NCBI RefSeq assembly: GCF_006715085.1
Contig: NZ_VFMM01000001.1
Location: forward strand, 1,054,001 to 1,118,000
Origin: Kribbella jejuensis
GTDB lineage: Bacteria; Actinomycetota; Actinomycetes; Propionibacteriales; Kribbellaceae
Reading direction: 5' to 3'
DNA length: 64,000 bases
The notes under the pieces were generated by a model that had not been told where the DNA came from, searched no databases, and was given only the letters and a program-made list of their open reading frames with translations. This document shows positions 1,395 to 44,256 of the stretch, one piece after another. Position numbers and translations under genes: made by a program. Numbering within the stretch: position 1 is the first letter of the stretch; every line of letters starts with the position of its first letter.

Positions 1395-6517
<5,123 letters not shown>

Positions 6518-39682: not shown

Positions 39683-40432
39683 TCAGGAACGTGGTGATCG
39701 CTTACTGTGCCCTTCGGGCTGCGCCGGCGCCGCGTCCAGTGAGCCGTCGATCACGGCGGCGGCGACCACACTGAGCTTGCGTCCGTTGCGACGCGCGTAA
39801 GAGCGCAGCGTGGTGAAAGCCGCGTCGACGCCGATGCCGGCACGCTCGGCCAGCACTCCTTTGGCCTGTTCGATCACGATGCGGCTGTTCAGCGCCGCCT
39901 GCAGTTGTTCGGCGACGATCTCGCCGTGTCGCACGGTCCGTTCCTGCAACAGGCCGATGGTGGCGACGTCGGAGAGTGCTTGACCGACCACGATGTCGTC
40001 GTCGCTCAGGTTGGACTCGGTCCGGCAGAACAGATTTATCGCTCCGATGACCTGTCGGCGCAGCCGCAGCGGCAAGGCATGCACGGAGTGGAAGCCGGCC
40101 GCGGCCGTCGCCGCGTGGAAGCGCGGCCAGCGGGCCTTGACCTCGGCCAGGTCGAGGTTCACGACCGGTTGCCCGGTGGTGAAGCACTCCAGACAGGGTC
40201 CTCCGGACTCCTGCAGCTCGAACAGCTCCAGCAAGCGGGCCTGGTCGCTGGTGGAGGCCAGCACATGCAGTTGCCCTTGCGGGTCGGCCAGGAGGAGACC
40301 GGCCGCGTCGGCCTGGAGCAGTTCGACGCTGCGCTCGGTCAGGGTGTGCAGGAAGTCGATCACGTCGAAATCGGCGACGAGGGTATCGGCAAGCTCGACG
40401 AACACGCCTGCCAGTTGCTGCTGCCTGCTCAT
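39683..40432 (-). CDS. GAF-ANTAR transcription antitermination regulator
   Basis: The 249-residue protein has a GAF domain (about 10-165, with the GGPCLECF motif and QVIGAINLFCR) followed by an ANTAR RNA-binding domain (about 170-230: LNSRIVIEQAKGVLAERAGIGVDAAFTTLRSYAR). ANTAR proteins bind paired RNA hairpins and prevent premature termination. The cysteine in GPC is a candidate redox or ligand site. It is one of three related GAF-ANTAR genes in a row on the same strand. A Ser/Arg-rich tail follows the ANTAR domain. Confidence 0.88.
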   Translation of the reverse strand: MSRQQQLAGVFVELADTLVADFDVIDFLHTLTERSVELLQADAAGLLLADPQGQLHVLASTSDQARLLELFELQESGGPCLECFTTGQPVVNLDLAEVKARWPRFHAATAAAGFHSVHALPLRLRRQVIGAINLFCRTESNLSDDDIVVGQALSDVATIGLLQERTVRHGEIVAEQLQAALNSRIVIEQAKGVLAERAGIGVDAAFTTLRSYARRNGRKLSVVAAAVIDGSLDAAPAQPEGHSKRSPRS

Positions 40433-40474
40433 GGCATTCTCTTTCCTGACGTGATCGCTATATCCGGGTCGTAG

Positions 40475-41212
40475 CTATTCATGATGATCGTCCTCGGGCC
40501 CGAAACGTAATTTCCGGGTGACCACGTCCTTGGCCACATCGATCAGTGGACGTTGGCTGCTGTACGCGTGGGCCTGCAGGCGCAACAGAGCCTCGGCAAG
40601 GCTGATCCCGGCCTGCGCCGTGATCATGCCGGTCGCCTGATGAATCTCACGGCGGCTGTCGACGGCCTCGGCCAGCTCAGGATGCAGCGGCCGGCCCGGC
40701 GCGGCGTCGTCCTGCAGATGCAACAGGATCGTCGTGGCTGCCTCGGCGAATGCCAGCGCCCCGGCCAGCTGAGGACTGTCCAGCGGACCGGTCGTGTCAC
40801 GGTACAGGTCGAGGGTTCCGAGCCGGATCGCACCGACCTGCAGCGGGAACGCGAACACGGCAGCGATACCTGTCTCGAGGGCGGCGGCGGTGAAGCCCGG
40901 CCACCGCGAGGCTCCCGTGGCGGCCAGGTCCGGCTGCAGCACCGGCCGCCCATCTGACGACGCGTCCACGCACGGGCCCTCGCCGAGGGTCGCCTGGAGG
41001 TCTTCCATCACCGCGGCCGGCCCGTCCGTGGCAGTGATCGTGCCGCCGTGGCCGGCAGCCGTCAGCAACGCCAGCCCCACTCCGGTGACCGGTATCGCCA
41101 CCACACAGGCACGGCAAAGGCGCTCCGGGAGCCCCGCTGTCCCACCGGCTGTGATATCGGCCAGGATCCGCCGAACCCGCAAGGATGACACCTGACCAGA
41201 CCGCCCTCCCAC
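40475..41212 (-). CDS. GAF-ANTAR transcription antitermination regulator
   Basis: This 245-residue paralogue has a GAF domain (about 20-165, GEGPCVDASSDG and GASRWPGFTAAALE) and an ANTAR domain (about 170-235: AVDSRREIHQATGMITAQAGISLAEALLRLQAHA). The GAF and ANTAR pattern matches the neighbours, but sequence divergence suggests distinct signals. The start is GTG 41212; an internal GTG seven codons later (41191) is possible and its Shine-Dalgarno relation is equally weak. The C-terminus ends acidic (FGPEDDHHE). It lies 42 nt upstream of the preceding paralogue. Confidence 0.85.
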   Translation of the reverse strand: MGGRSGQVSSLRVRRILADITAGGTAGLPERLCRACVVAIPVTGVGLALLTAAGHGGTITATDGPAAVMEDLQATLGEGPCVDASSDGRPVLQPDLAATGASRWPGFTAAALETGIAAVFAFPLQVGAIRLGTLDLYRDTTGPLDSPQLAGALAFAEAATTILLHLQDDAAPGRPLHPELAEAVDSRREIHQATGMITAQAGISLAEALLRLQAHAYSSQRPLIDVAKDVVTRKLRFGPEDDHHE

Positions 41213-41242
41213 ACCATGTCGTCGACCGAAGCCCGCCCCCGA

Positions 41243-42016
41243 TCATCCGGCACGCACAGAGACCGCGGCGATTCTGGTGGGAGGCCGACGGGTGCTGACC
41301 AACTCGTCCACCACGACGCGGAGCTTGTTGTTGTCCTGCGAACAGCGGCGCAACACTGCGAACGCCTGGTCGGCGTCGATTGCGTAGCGTTCCATCAGCC
41401 GCCCCTGAGCCTGACCGATGGTCGAGCTGGCCTCTGCCACCTGCGCCAGCATCGATGTCCGCTGCACGGTGTCGACCGCGACTGAGGCGTGCCGGGCCAG
41501 CACGCTCGCGATGACCTCGTCTGCGGCAGTGAACTGGCCCGGGTGGGCCTGGTAGAGATTGAGCGCGCCGAGAGGCGACCGGGTGGTGAACAGCCGGACT
41601 GTGAGCACGTTGCGCAGCCCCAGCTCGGCCACCGCTGGACTCCACCGCGGCCACCGCGGATCACTGACTGTGTCGCCGACCAGGACGTCGTAGTGCTCGC
41701 TGCCCACCGGGACACAGGGTCCCTCACCGTACTCCAGTTGGAGCTGATCAGCGTGCTCCACCCGCAGGTCCGTGACACCGGCCGTCTGCAAATGGTTCCC
41801 GCGCTGCATCAGGATCAGCCCGGCGCAATCGCATCCGGGGAGGCGCAGCGCGCAGTCCAGCACCAGGTCCACCGTCTCGGCCATGGTTGCCGCGCTGTAC
41901 AACTCGACCGCCAACTCCCCGAACGCGGCGGCCACCAAGCCTGTCGGCCGTGAACCTGCACTGCGGTGGTGACTGCTCTTGGACAGCTGATGGTCCACAG
42001 GTTGTGTGAGAAACAT
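41243..42016 (-). CDS. GAF-ANTAR transcription antitermination regulator
   Basis: The 257-residue protein has a GAF domain (about 40-170, GEGPCVPVGSEHYD, SPLGALNLYQ) and an ANTAR domain (about 195-245: QAQGRLMERYAIDADQAFAVLRRCSQDNNKL). ATG 42016 has AGGGAG 7 nt upstream. Its leader carries the 18-nt element CCGGGTCCAGGGCAGCCG (plus-strand sense) also found before the desaturase gene, and that element can pair with this Shine-Dalgarno region. It is the first gene of the three-paralogue run, about 225 nt downstream of the desaturase stop. Confidence 0.87.
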   Translation of the reverse strand: MFLTQPVDHQLSKSSHHRSAGSRPTGLVAAAFGELAVELYSAATMAETVDLVLDCALRLPGCDCAGLILMQRGNHLQTAGVTDLRVEHADQLQLEYGEGPCVPVGSEHYDVLVGDTVSDPRWPRWSPAVAELGLRNVLTVRLFTTRSPLGALNLYQAHPGQFTAADEVIASVLARHASVAVDTVQRTSMLAQVAEASSTIGQAQGRLMERYAIDADQAFAVLRRCSQDNNKLRVVVDELVSTRRPPTRIAAVSVRAG

Positions 42017-42055
42017 GGGCCGACTCCCTGCAACGAACACCCCGATGGAGGGCAG

Positions 42056-42073
42056 CCGGGTCCAGGGCAGCCG
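42056..42073 (-). promoter_or_regulatory. Shared leader element, copy upstream of the GAF-ANTAR gene
   Basis: The 18-nt word CCGGGTCCAGGGCAGCCG lies 40-57 nt before ATG 42016, and an identical copy lies before the desaturase gene. In the minus-strand RNA, GGCUG and CCCU of the element can pair with AGGGAGUCGGCC, which contains the ribosome site, with a 3-nt bulge. Confidence 0.5.
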
Positions 42074-42241
42074 AATACCGCTTCGAATTTCAGCGATGTG
42101 ATGCCTCGAACATACCGCCATTTCGCGCCCACAGCACTACTGAAGTCCTTGCTTGCGGACGTCGAAGGTCCAGTCGTGCCGCGATCCCGGGCCGAACTCC
42201 GACGAATCGGACCACCGCGGTGTCCGCGGGCCGGAATTTCG

Positions 42242-43288
42242 TCATCCGGCGGCGATCGTCCGGGCCCGGCGCAACTCGGCCCCGACATCACGGAGGTGGC
42301 GGAGCACCGCGCCGTACGACGCGGACGCCGAGGCCTCCACGTAGGGCACCTGGTGCGACTCACAGAAGCGCCGAACCACCGGCTGCGCCACCCGGAGATT
42401 GGGCCGCGGCATGCTCGGGAACAGATGGTGCTCGATCTGGTAGTTGAGGCCACCCAGCACGAAGTCGAGGACCGGCCCGCCACGCACGTTGCGAGACGTG
42501 ATCACCTGCCGCAACAACGGGTCAGCGGCCTGCTCGGCGGACAGAACCGGCATCCCCTTGTGATTGGGGGCGAACGAGCAACCGAGATATACCCCGAGCA
42601 ACCCCTGGTGGATCACGAGAAAGACGCCCGCCTGCAGCCAGGTCATGGTGCTCAACAGCAGGACGACATAACCGCAGAAATGGACCCCGAGCAGAGTTAA
42701 CTCTGTGGTTCTCGACCGGATGCCCGGCTTCAGCAGGGCACGGACGCTGGAGACGTGCAGGTTGAGTGCCTCGAGCAACAACAGGGGAAAGAACAACGAG
42801 GCTTGGTGACGCGTCAGCCATCCGGCTGCCCCCTTCCTCGCGGACGCCTGCGCCGCGTCGAACACCAGGATGCCGGGGAGGACGTCGGGATCTTCCTCGA
42901 GGTCGTTCGGGTGGGCGTGGTGAGCGTTGTGCTTGTCGATCCACCACCCGTAGCTCAGTCCGTTCAGCACGTTGGCGTTCAGCAATCCGAGCAGCATGGT
43001 CGGCACCCGCTTGCGGGCGACCTGGTGGTGACCCACGTCGTGACCCAAGAAGCCGATCTGCGCGGACACGATTGCCAACGCGACCGCGAGCAGCATCAGC
43101 CACCAGGAGTTCCGCAGCAGCACCATCGCGGTGACAACGCCACCGAGCCCGATCAGGTTGGCGATCAGCAGGACGGCGTAGAACCCCGGGCGTCGACGCT
43201 GCAAGCCGAGGCTACGGATCTCCCGGGCCAGTTCGGCGTAACCGCTGGCGGGCGGGGTGGCATTGGTACTTCGCGTGCTGATGGACAT
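42242..43288 (-). CDS. Membrane fatty-acid desaturase
   Basis: The 348-residue integral membrane di-iron enzyme has three histidine boxes in canonical order: GHDVGHH (about 89-95), HNAHHAH (about 125-131) and NYQIEHHLF (about 286-294). Hydrophobic segments lie at about 40-62, 66-85, 160-180 and 210-245. It introduces a double bond into acyl-lipid or acyl-CoA chains using O2 and an electron donor, likely adjusting membrane fluidity. The N-terminus has a short Ser/Thr-rich stretch. Three ANTAR regulators follow on the same strand, and its leader carries the shared element plus a hairpin beside the start codon. Confidence 0.92.
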   Translation of the reverse strand: MSISTRSTNATPPASGYAELAREIRSLGLQRRRPGFYAVLLIANLIGLGGVVTAMVLLRNSWWLMLLAVALAIVSAQIGFLGHDVGHHQVARKRVPTMLLGLLNANVLNGLSYGWWIDKHNAHHAHPNDLEEDPDVLPGILVFDAAQASARKGAAGWLTRHQASLFFPLLLLEALNLHVSSVRALLKPGIRSRTTELTLLGVHFCGYVVLLLSTMTWLQAGVFLVIHQGLLGVYLGCSFAPNHKGMPVLSAEQAADPLLRQVITSRNVRGGPVLDFVLGGLNYQIEHHLFPSMPRPNLRVAQPVVRRFCESHQVPYVEASASASYGAVLRHLRDVGAELRRARTIAAG

Positions 43289-43337
43289 CCCTGGACTCCA
43301 ATGTGTCGCGTCCTCGCCACCGGGTCCAGGGCAGCCG
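43289..43337 (-). promoter_or_regulatory. Desaturase leader hairpin containing the shared 18-nt element
   Basis: The shared 18-nt element lies at 43320-43337. Its inner portion GTCCAGGG (43324-43331) forms a perfect 8-bp inverted repeat with CCCTGGAC at 43289-43296, which directly abuts the ATG. The GGAG ribosome site (43296-43299) is at the stem edge, so the fold could block translation initiation. Confidence 0.5.
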
Positions 43338-43452
43338 CTCTCAGCTCAGCATACGCCGAGTAGCGCAAAGTGCAGGCTGTCCATTCTTGTCGATCCGCGG
43401 TCATGGCAGGTCCCTCGCCACAACCGGCCCGGCAGATCGAACGGCAGGCCGG

Positions 43453-44256
43453 TCATCGGCGGTGTTCCCGGGCGGACGCGTACAGGCAGATGGCGGCGGC
43501 GGTGGCCAGGTTGAGGGACTCGGCGCGGCCGTAGATCGGGACTTTCACTGAGTGGTCTACGAGGGCGTTGATGCCGTCGGGGAGGCCGTGGGCCTCGTTG
43601 CCGAAGAGCCAGACGGTCGGCTTCGCGAGCGTGCCGTCGTCGATGCAGGTGTCCAGGTCGGTGGCGCCGTACCCGTCCGCGGCGAGCACCTGCAGGCCTT
43701 GCTCACGCCACGACGCCACGGCGGCGACGATGTCGACGTCGGTGCTGACCGGGACGTGGAAGATGCTGCCGACGCTGGCCCGCACCGCCTTCGGGTTGTG
43801 CGGGTCGACGGACTCGGCCGACAGTACGACGGCATCCGCGCCGGCAGCGTCCGCCGTACGGATCAAGGTGCCGACGTTGCCCGGATCGCGGACCTGGACC
43901 CCGGCCGCGACGAGCTTGATCGCATCGGTCCGCAGCGGAACCGTCACCAGCGTGCAGACGGCGACCACGCCCTGCGAGGTGACGGTCTCGCTCAGCGTCT
44001 CGATCGCGGCCCGGTCCACCTCGAACCATGGCACACCGGCCGCGGCGGCCAGGTCGTACAGGTCACGGTGCCGAGCGGCGACGGCGGGTTCGGCGTACAC
44101 CTCGACGACCAGTTCGCGGTGCTCGAGCGCCTCCCGGACGGCCTGCGGACCCTCGACCAGGAATCGGCCGGCCTTGCGCCGGAACGCGCGAGTGGCGAGC
44201 CTCCGGGCCTGTTTGATCCGCGCGGACTGCGCGGTCAACAGACCAGGGCTCGCCAC
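43453..44256 (-). CDS. TrmH/SpoU-family rRNA or tRNA 2'-O-methyltransferase
   Basis: The 267-residue SPOUT enzyme has an N-terminal substrate-binding domain (about 1-95, with ARRLATRAFRRKAGRFLVEG) and the knotted AdoMet domain (about 105-265). The SPOUT motifs are VRDPGNVGTLIRTADAAGAD, WLFGNEAHGLP and IYGRAESLNLATAAAICLY. It is commonly encoded just after rplT in actinobacteria, as here (20 nt downstream), which fits a ribosome-modification role; the target nucleotide is unknown. GTG 44256 gives family length, though no Shine-Dalgarno is seen. Confidence 0.9.
   Translation of the reverse strand: MASPGLLTAQSARIKQARRLATRAFRRKAGRFLVEGPQAVREALEHRELVVEVYAEPAVAARHRDLYDLAAAAGVPWFEVDRAAIETLSETVTSQGVVAVCTLVTVPLRTDAIKLVAAGVQVRDPGNVGTLIRTADAAGADAVVLSAESVDPHNPKAVRASVGSIFHVPVSTDVDIVAAVASWREQGLQVLAADGYGATDLDTCIDDGTLAKPTVWLFGNEAHGLPDGINALVDHSVKVPIYGRAESLNLATAAAICLYASAREHRR

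Follow-up and report, generated by a model that had tools for sequence, protein, structure and literature searches.

A leader element kept ahead of desaturase and stress-regulator genes in relatives of Kribbella jejuensis looks like an undescribed RNA switch for translation

Introduction

SD-sequestering riboswitches and RNA thermometers adopt two mutually exclusive folds, one of which masks the ribosome-binding region. ANTAR-target RNAs are the second system with which the locus described here can be compared; Mehta and Ramesh 2021 (PMC8164766) define them by two stem-loops of at least 3 bp with hexanucleotide loops carrying A at position 1 and G at position 4 and a linker of 2-25 nt, state that actinobacterial examples often overlap the RBS, and report translation control for a mycobacterial case.

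The element analyzed in this study resembles the SD-sequestering systems in having two exclusive predicted folds, one of them masking the ribosome-binding region, and differs from them in lacking an Rfam match and in that its credible matches, within the material scanned and inspected, come from a single genus plus one genome of a neighbouring family. Like the ANTAR-target RNAs, it is a leader RNA located close to the RBS, in genomes that encode many ANTAR proteins; unlike them, it has one hairpin with an 8-9 nt loop (CNRGACCY) and no excess of tandem A1/G4 hexaloops. Literature searches found no work on ANTAR with desaturase in actinobacteria and, judged by title, nothing on such an element for ANTAR/GAF with STAS and sigma factor in Streptomyces; for candidate structured RNAs and riboswitches, desaturase was not named among the matches listed. 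By their titles, PMC8164766, PMC3369931 and PMC8934654 come close to the subject.

This study followed up an earlier note on a 64,000-nt stretch of the Kribbella jejuensis genome (the window), which had been made from the letters alone. We favor, with a probability of about 0.52, the reading that the element is the core of a lineage-restricted, cis-acting 5'-leader RNA controlling translation initiation of desaturase and stress-regulator genes, with two exclusive folds between which a trans factor or condition chooses.

Results and Discussion

Two identical copies in neighbouring leaders

The part of the window under study carries the following genes.

39683-40432, minus strand: GAF-ANTAR gene ANTAR1, in a cluster with ANTAR2 and ANTAR3
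40475-41212, minus strand: GAF-ANTAR gene ANTAR2, in a cluster with ANTAR1 and ANTAR3
41243-42016, minus strand: GAF-ANTAR gene ANTAR3, 257 aa, ATG at 42016 (Pfam)
42242-43288, minus strand: gene for a fatty-acid desaturase of 348 aa (PF00487, E 1e-37), whose best homologue among the other genomes of the genus stands at 51%

The 18-mer CCGGGTCCAGGGCAGCCG occurs twice in the window, at 42056-42073 and 43320-43337, and reads CGGCTGCCCTGGACCCGG in the sense (minus-strand) direction; the copies are exact, as the earlier note had reported, and a full-length scan found no third site in the window with up to 3 mismatches. The element lies 39 nt from the start codon of the GAF-ANTAR gene (42014-42016) and 31 nt from that of the desaturase gene (43286-43288), both on the minus strand and both within the 30-60 nt previously given. 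The features of the two leaders are as follows.

42020-42029, minus strand: ribosome-binding region AGGGAGTCGG of the GAF-ANTAR gene, the element's partner in the predicted sequestering fold
42056-42073, minus strand: element copy 1, CGGCTGCCCTGGACCCGG, in the GAF-ANTAR leader, as 5' arm and loop of the predicted hairpin P1; seen as TGCCCNNGACCC in four orthologue leaders
42110-42119, minus strand: promoter-like block GGCGGTATGT (GTAYNGTTC in orthologues), proposed from its sequence pattern alone
43289-43299, minus strand: desaturase ribosome-binding region GGAGTCCAGGG, able to pair with the element apart from one bulged A, and abutting the AUG
43303-43318, minus strand: GUG-GCG-AGGA-CGC-GA-CAC, a possible inner hairpin that was read from the desaturase leader sequence and whose position corresponds to that of the covarying inner hairpin of the 27-leader family below
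43316-43335, minus strand: possible P1 of the desaturase leader, GCUGCC-CUGGACCC-GGUGGC, made of the element and 43316-43319
43320-43337, minus strand: element copy 2, the identical 18 nt, in the desaturase leader
43345-43357, minus strand: weak promoter-like block GGCGTATGCTGAG 5' of the desaturase element, by analogy with other leaders

RNA folding bore out the suggested stem abutting the desaturase ATG: CCCUGGAC pairs with GUCCAGGG, which abuts the AUG (-31.3 kcal/mol, z -2.0, with 6 of 200 shuffles equal or better), and the predicted fold contains GCG-AGGA-CGC as an inner hairpin. In the regulator leader the element is likewise able to pair with AGGGAGUCGG, as the earlier note said; the fold of this leader, however, is no better than shuffles (z -0.1), and the element's pairing with its own SD is unremarkable; P1 in this leader would span 42052-42071 with one U-U mismatch. 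The description of the flanks as unrelated also holds partly: a single covariance model matches both leaders (57.1 bits over 60 nt and 37.5 bits over 52 nt, the sole matches in the window at E<=5), both having belonged to the sequences used for building that model.

Dispersed exact 18-mer repeats within 2 kb number 2 in the window vs. 0.02-0.05 per Markov simulation, and 5 vs. 0.37-0.78 window-wide. Because real sequence repeats more than Markov simulation, the repeat alone is weak evidence. A chance or gene-conversion repeat that is functionless in the window would fit these further repeated 18-mers, the lack of enrichment of the 18-mer in its own whole genome (10 sites with up to 2 mismatches vs. 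11 for the reversed pattern) and the absence of special pairing between the window regulator leader and its own SD, whereas the core is kept in four orthologous leaders and recurs in 32 of 40 desaturase leaders; we regard such a repeat as very improbable. Conservation in relatives, as judged by sequence comparison, decides the case, and the repeat by itself would not carry the claim.

Conservation in relatives

ANTAR3 orthologues in four genomes of the genus have 58-67% protein identity. In each of their leaders TGCCCNNGACCC occupies the same place, and a promoter-like GTAY block lies 5' of it. The earlier proposal depended on the element being present in relatives, where it was found in these four leaders and in further ones. 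The three-gene GAF-ANTAR cluster (39683-42016) is kept in G031, G025, G023 and G027 and, more distantly, in G004. Reading the element as coding sequence (a 292-aa frame from ATG 42121) is disfavored, as the G031 orthologue has a TAG within the element in the same frame, counted by hand.

Duplication of a gene start is likewise disfavored, in agreement with the earlier note: the four orthologues keep the ANTAR3 leader with no desaturase match within the 12-kb stretches around their ANTAR clusters, and the window desaturase leader resembles those of other desaturase genes. That the two window copies are exactly identical probably reflects constraint on the motif rather than duplication. Separately, the closest desaturase to that of the window (51%) lies divergently beside the ANTAR cluster of G004 (L127 = G004:C144, about 4400-6440), a locus at which the covariance model finds no element; a desaturase gene and a GAF-ANTAR gene are near neighbours in G035 too (L128).

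For five ANTAR3 leaders, RNAalifold predicts a helix between GCCC-NN-GAC-CC and GG-A-GUC-GGGC of the ribosome-binding region, and the window desaturase leader has the same arrangement with its two middle bases paired too. By eye, the ANTAR3 leaders L132-L135 and L137 may carry a second hairpin 5' of the element, which reads CCGCT/AGCGG, CGCCG/CGGCG or CCCGG/CCGGG among species.

The 18-mer with up to 1 mismatch occurs in 16 of 38 genus genomes, by eye mostly in contexts other than leaders of these genes; the site G011:C7:279277 was subsequently scored as one. When the pattern was loosened to a 23-mer, suggested by the leaders of G031 and G027 and also matching them, it found leaders in G010 (two), G002, G017 and G027:C52 plus many other sites. 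A 20-mer found 150 sites vs. 103 for its reversed control, so its single-mismatch sites are mostly background; the 12 perfect matches comprise nine known leaders, one site before a 46-aa frame (G006) and two in long open frames.

A covariance-model family of 27 leaders

A first covariance model from eight leaders was searched against 38 genus genomes, refined (R1, R2) and rerun on the genus and on 293 genomes of the order; its E-values are rough and too optimistic, with R2 giving 1 to 15 matches at E<=1 in every genus genome. The alignment used here (A7) holds 27 rows at E<=0.003 over 21 chosen loci, with downstream genes inspected and compared with Pfam, while a 13-row alignment (A6) omitted L140, L155 and weaker secondary matches; a further alignment of 20 rows (A5) was set aside. 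Model matches discarded by eye as chance were G028:6180950, G007:C75, G204, G115, G246, G175 and G046, together with coding-looking sites.

The 27 leaders comprise 25 from 14 genus genomes and two from G050, a genome of another family of the order. They precede 10 GAF(-ANTAR) genes (two of which, at L159 and L204, were recognized by eye), eight sigma-like genes, three STAS genes, one ECF sigma gene, one SigB-type sigma gene (start uncertain, roughly 90-300 nt beyond its leader) and two desaturase genes; two rows have no clear gene (L192 minus and L193:2635). The sigma-like label rests on Pfam matches below cut-off for four proteins and on by-eye similarity for three, and also covers a short G017 frame with no Pfam match. 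The two desaturase genes are that of the window and one in G021 (PF00487, E 5e-17), whose leader is a weak model match (21 bits with R1, E 0.7; 25 bits with R2). The element, tied to ANTAR in the earlier note, is not confined to ANTAR genes; it also stands ahead of STAS, sigma-like and sigma genes and of many desaturase genes.

Several features of gene arrangement were observed in passing. The small protein behind the element at L138, L142, L188, L192, L195, L197, L200 and L204 shows a C-D-x-H-type motif and weakly resembles sigma region 4, and in G017 a frameshift joins the sigma-like small protein to the GAF-ANTAR protein. Leaders face each other divergently at three places (G017, G011 and G010), and element-bearing STAS, sigma-like and GAF-ANTAR leaders cluster within about 30 kb at L194, L195 and L122 (G010:C1, 2.80-2.83 Mb) and at L192 and L193 (G011:C7).

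In 12 of the 27 leaders GTAYNGT is found no more than 60 nt upstream of the element, vs. 0.9 in shuffles (at most 5 in 500); the pattern was picked post hoc in an alignment whose rows are in part orthologous and share it partly by descent. Transcription probably starts upstream of the element, to judge from the GTAY block within about 60 nt, and if the block GGCGGTATGT is a promoter, the element would lie in the GAF-ANTAR 5' UTR.

Pairing with the ribosome-binding region

In the 27-leader alignment 83.2% of cells pair vs. 78.5% with shuffled partners, a value that none of 500 shuffles reaches; sliding lowers it to 34-47%. As to the covariation in relatives called for by the earlier note, there are 18 double-change cells vs. 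6.1 in shuffles (0 of 500), of which 15 fall in the inner hairpin and three in the element:SD helix, one of the latter in G050, where GUCC pairs with GGAC. Pairs with double changes number seven, a count reached in 6 of 500 shuffles. These statistics lean toward structure, since the alignment was fitted to the model, holds the sequences from which the model was built and includes orthologous rows. Conserved pairing with the ribosome-binding region, the mark of an SD-sequestering leader RNA, is present in both leader sets, the element:SD helix (helix 1) being paired in 81.5% of cells in the 27-leader alignment, with little covariation, and the GCCC:GGGC pairing with the SD side being kept in 93.4% of cells in the 34 desaturase leaders described below; in that uniform set no covariation was found for this fold or for P1.

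When SD regions were swapped among 26 of the 27 rows (L193:2635 was dropped), the elements paired better on average with their own SD (mean -15.1 vs. -13.4 kcal/mol, with 7 of 20000 permutations as low), but in 12 of the 26 leaders the own SD was matched by half or more of the swapped ones. The window desaturase leader beats every swap (own -24.6, swapped mean -12.7). The window GAF-ANTAR leader, by contrast, reaches -11.1 with its own SD against a swapped mean of -14.0; for its element 0.76 of the swaps, and 60% of 148 unrelated SD regions, are as good a partner. The accessibility predicted for the SD is lower than in shuffles in 21 of the 27 leaders, and in 17 of the 34 desaturase leaders, the latter count being what chance would give. 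In the two window leaders the predicted accessibility is 0.12 and 0.14, compared with 0.31 and 0.44 in shuffles, and on these folding predictions masking of the SD is credible for both window genes.

Desaturase leaders and the hairpin P1

Once the model had picked out the desaturase leaders L222 and L223, 40 others were chosen by protein match, one upstream stretch per gene with second copies of tandem pairs mostly left out: 35 of a distant type and five of a nearer type, the labels type 1 and type 2 having been assigned from identity and leader without a tree. GTG(G/A)CGCTG(C/T)CC followed by the core is present in 32 of the 40 and missing from eight (all five of the nearer type, plus L236, L239 and L242). 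These 32 together with L222 and L223 form the 34-leader alignment (A9). Of these core-bearing leaders, 32 of 34 match R3 at E<=1; the exceptions are L244 and L261, the latter belonging to the window genome's own second-type desaturase gene and having a degenerate core. The 21-mer GCTGCCCTGGACCCGGTGGCG of the window desaturase leader is repeated ahead of five desaturase genes from other species. In addition, a conserved block, (A/G)TGGTTCNGTTG, stands 30-33 nt 5' of GTG(G/A)CGCTG in 30 of the 34 leaders (L222-L257), often followed by GCCAC...GTGGC; it may be a promoter or a further RNA part.

RNAalifold on the 34 leaders favors a local hairpin, CGCUGCC-[CYRGACCY]-GGURGCG, in which P1 is paired in 34 of 34 rows, though a count limited to loops of 8-10 nt scores the P1 of L261 at 4 of 7. 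Over 61 leaders, 94.1% of P1 cells are paired, a value reached by 1 of 2000 shuffles, the score taking the best of three loop lengths per leader; within the 27-leader alignment alone the pairing of P1 does not stand out from that with shuffled partners (316 of 2000). Most of its changes involve G-U pairs, a pattern more in keeping with RNA than with a DNA palindrome. The hairpin loop holds GGA in 31 of the 61 leaders, as CsrA/RsmA sites do, and AGA in its place in 22.

The main alternative at this point is a DNA operator, with the core as a transcription-factor site just 3' of a stress-type promoter and the RNA pairing incidental. The core is more constant in sequence than its pairing with the SD, a promoter-like block lies 5' of it and the P1 arms form an imperfect palindrome, all as such an operator would have it. 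The 3' arm, however, mostly starts GGTAG, GGTGG or GGCGG, which keeps G-U pairs, and the perfect-palindrome GGCAG appears in 1 of 61 leaders; the inner hairpin also varies in sequence with its pairing retained. A DNA operator is somewhat unlikely in our judgment.

The suggested ANTAR link

The earlier note had found attractive a shared RNA element controlling an ANTAR regulator and its target. The shared, conserved leader element stood up, while recognition as an ANTAR RNA did not, hexaloops being no commoner than in shuffles. The strict two-hexaloop arrangement is present in 1 of the 27 and 0 of the 34 leaders (shuffles give 0.64 and 0.73); both window leaders lack it. With 3 of 4 loop letters required the counts are 4 of 27 and 6 of 34 vs. 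6.4 and 8.5, and with 2 of 4 letters 14 of 27 and 19 of 34 vs. 17.1 and 22.2; the window GAF-ANTAR leader passes just this loosest form. Rfam 15 gave only sR28 for window positions 40200-43600 (17 bits vs. a cut-off of 39), no match at gathering score for 10 loci and none at E<=1 for 16 desaturase-leader loci.

An ANTAR-target RNA, bound by a GAF-ANTAR protein that regulates its own operon and the desaturase, is not supported by these results, and many leaders stand ahead of other genes. It is kept as a minority reading, and quite an unlikely one, through the GAF(-ANTAR) genes behind 10 of the 27 leaders and the frequent overlap of actinobacterial examples with the RBS mentioned in PMC8164766.

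Distribution and proposed mechanism

The order-wide scan gave a match at E<=0.05 in 119 of 293 genomes; of seven matches inspected outside the genus, just the two of G050 looked real, and these stand before STAS and sigma-like genes. Seven other genomes of the family of G050 gave no match at E<=0.01, and a class-wide sample of 393 other genomes, under stricter filters, gave none at E<=1e-5. Locus by locus, the element is present at 6 of 30 best GAF-ANTAR loci per genome (24 of 30 without it) and at 1 of 30 best desaturase matches per genome, that of the window (29 of 30 without it). Among what was searched and inspected, the element is best read as lineage-restricted, with credible matches in the genus itself and in G050 from a neighbouring family. 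Sequence comparison supports a shared leader element that is kept in relatives, able to pair with the ribosome-binding region and placed ahead of regulators and desaturases.

Conserved, placed just 5' of start codons, associated with desaturase and stress-regulator genes and capable of both pairings, the element as a translational switch would work as follows. Transcription would begin at a promoter 5' of it. In one fold the core would close on itself as P1, GCUGCC-[CNRGACCY]-GGYRGC, and leave the ribosome-binding region free; in the other, GCCC..GACCC of the core would pair with GG-A-GUC-GGGC (GG-A-GUC-CA-GGG in the window desaturase) and mask that region. Because both use GCCC, P1 and the SD stem are mutually exclusive in full, and which of the two forms would be set by a trans factor or by a condition, for instance temperature. 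We infer translation control and the switching itself. If this reading is true, it would describe an unrecorded regulatory RNA family tying membrane-lipid desaturation to stress regulators in a large-genome actinobacterial genus, and would offer a concrete leader for asking what role the many GAF-ANTAR proteins play in these bacteria; the identical 18-mer pair would then be the visible tip of a genus-wide motif.

A more far-reaching version, which we put forward as speculation and think improbable, is that one trans RNA-binding factor, possibly a GAF-ANTAR protein with a non-canonical single-hairpin target, sets translation of desaturases and of a STAS/sigma/GAF-ANTAR network that includes its own operon, the element being a new RNA family.

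Elsewhere in the window, at 563-601, the 13-nt unit GGTGCGGGCTACT is present in three tandem copies, with an approximate phase taken from exact repeats.
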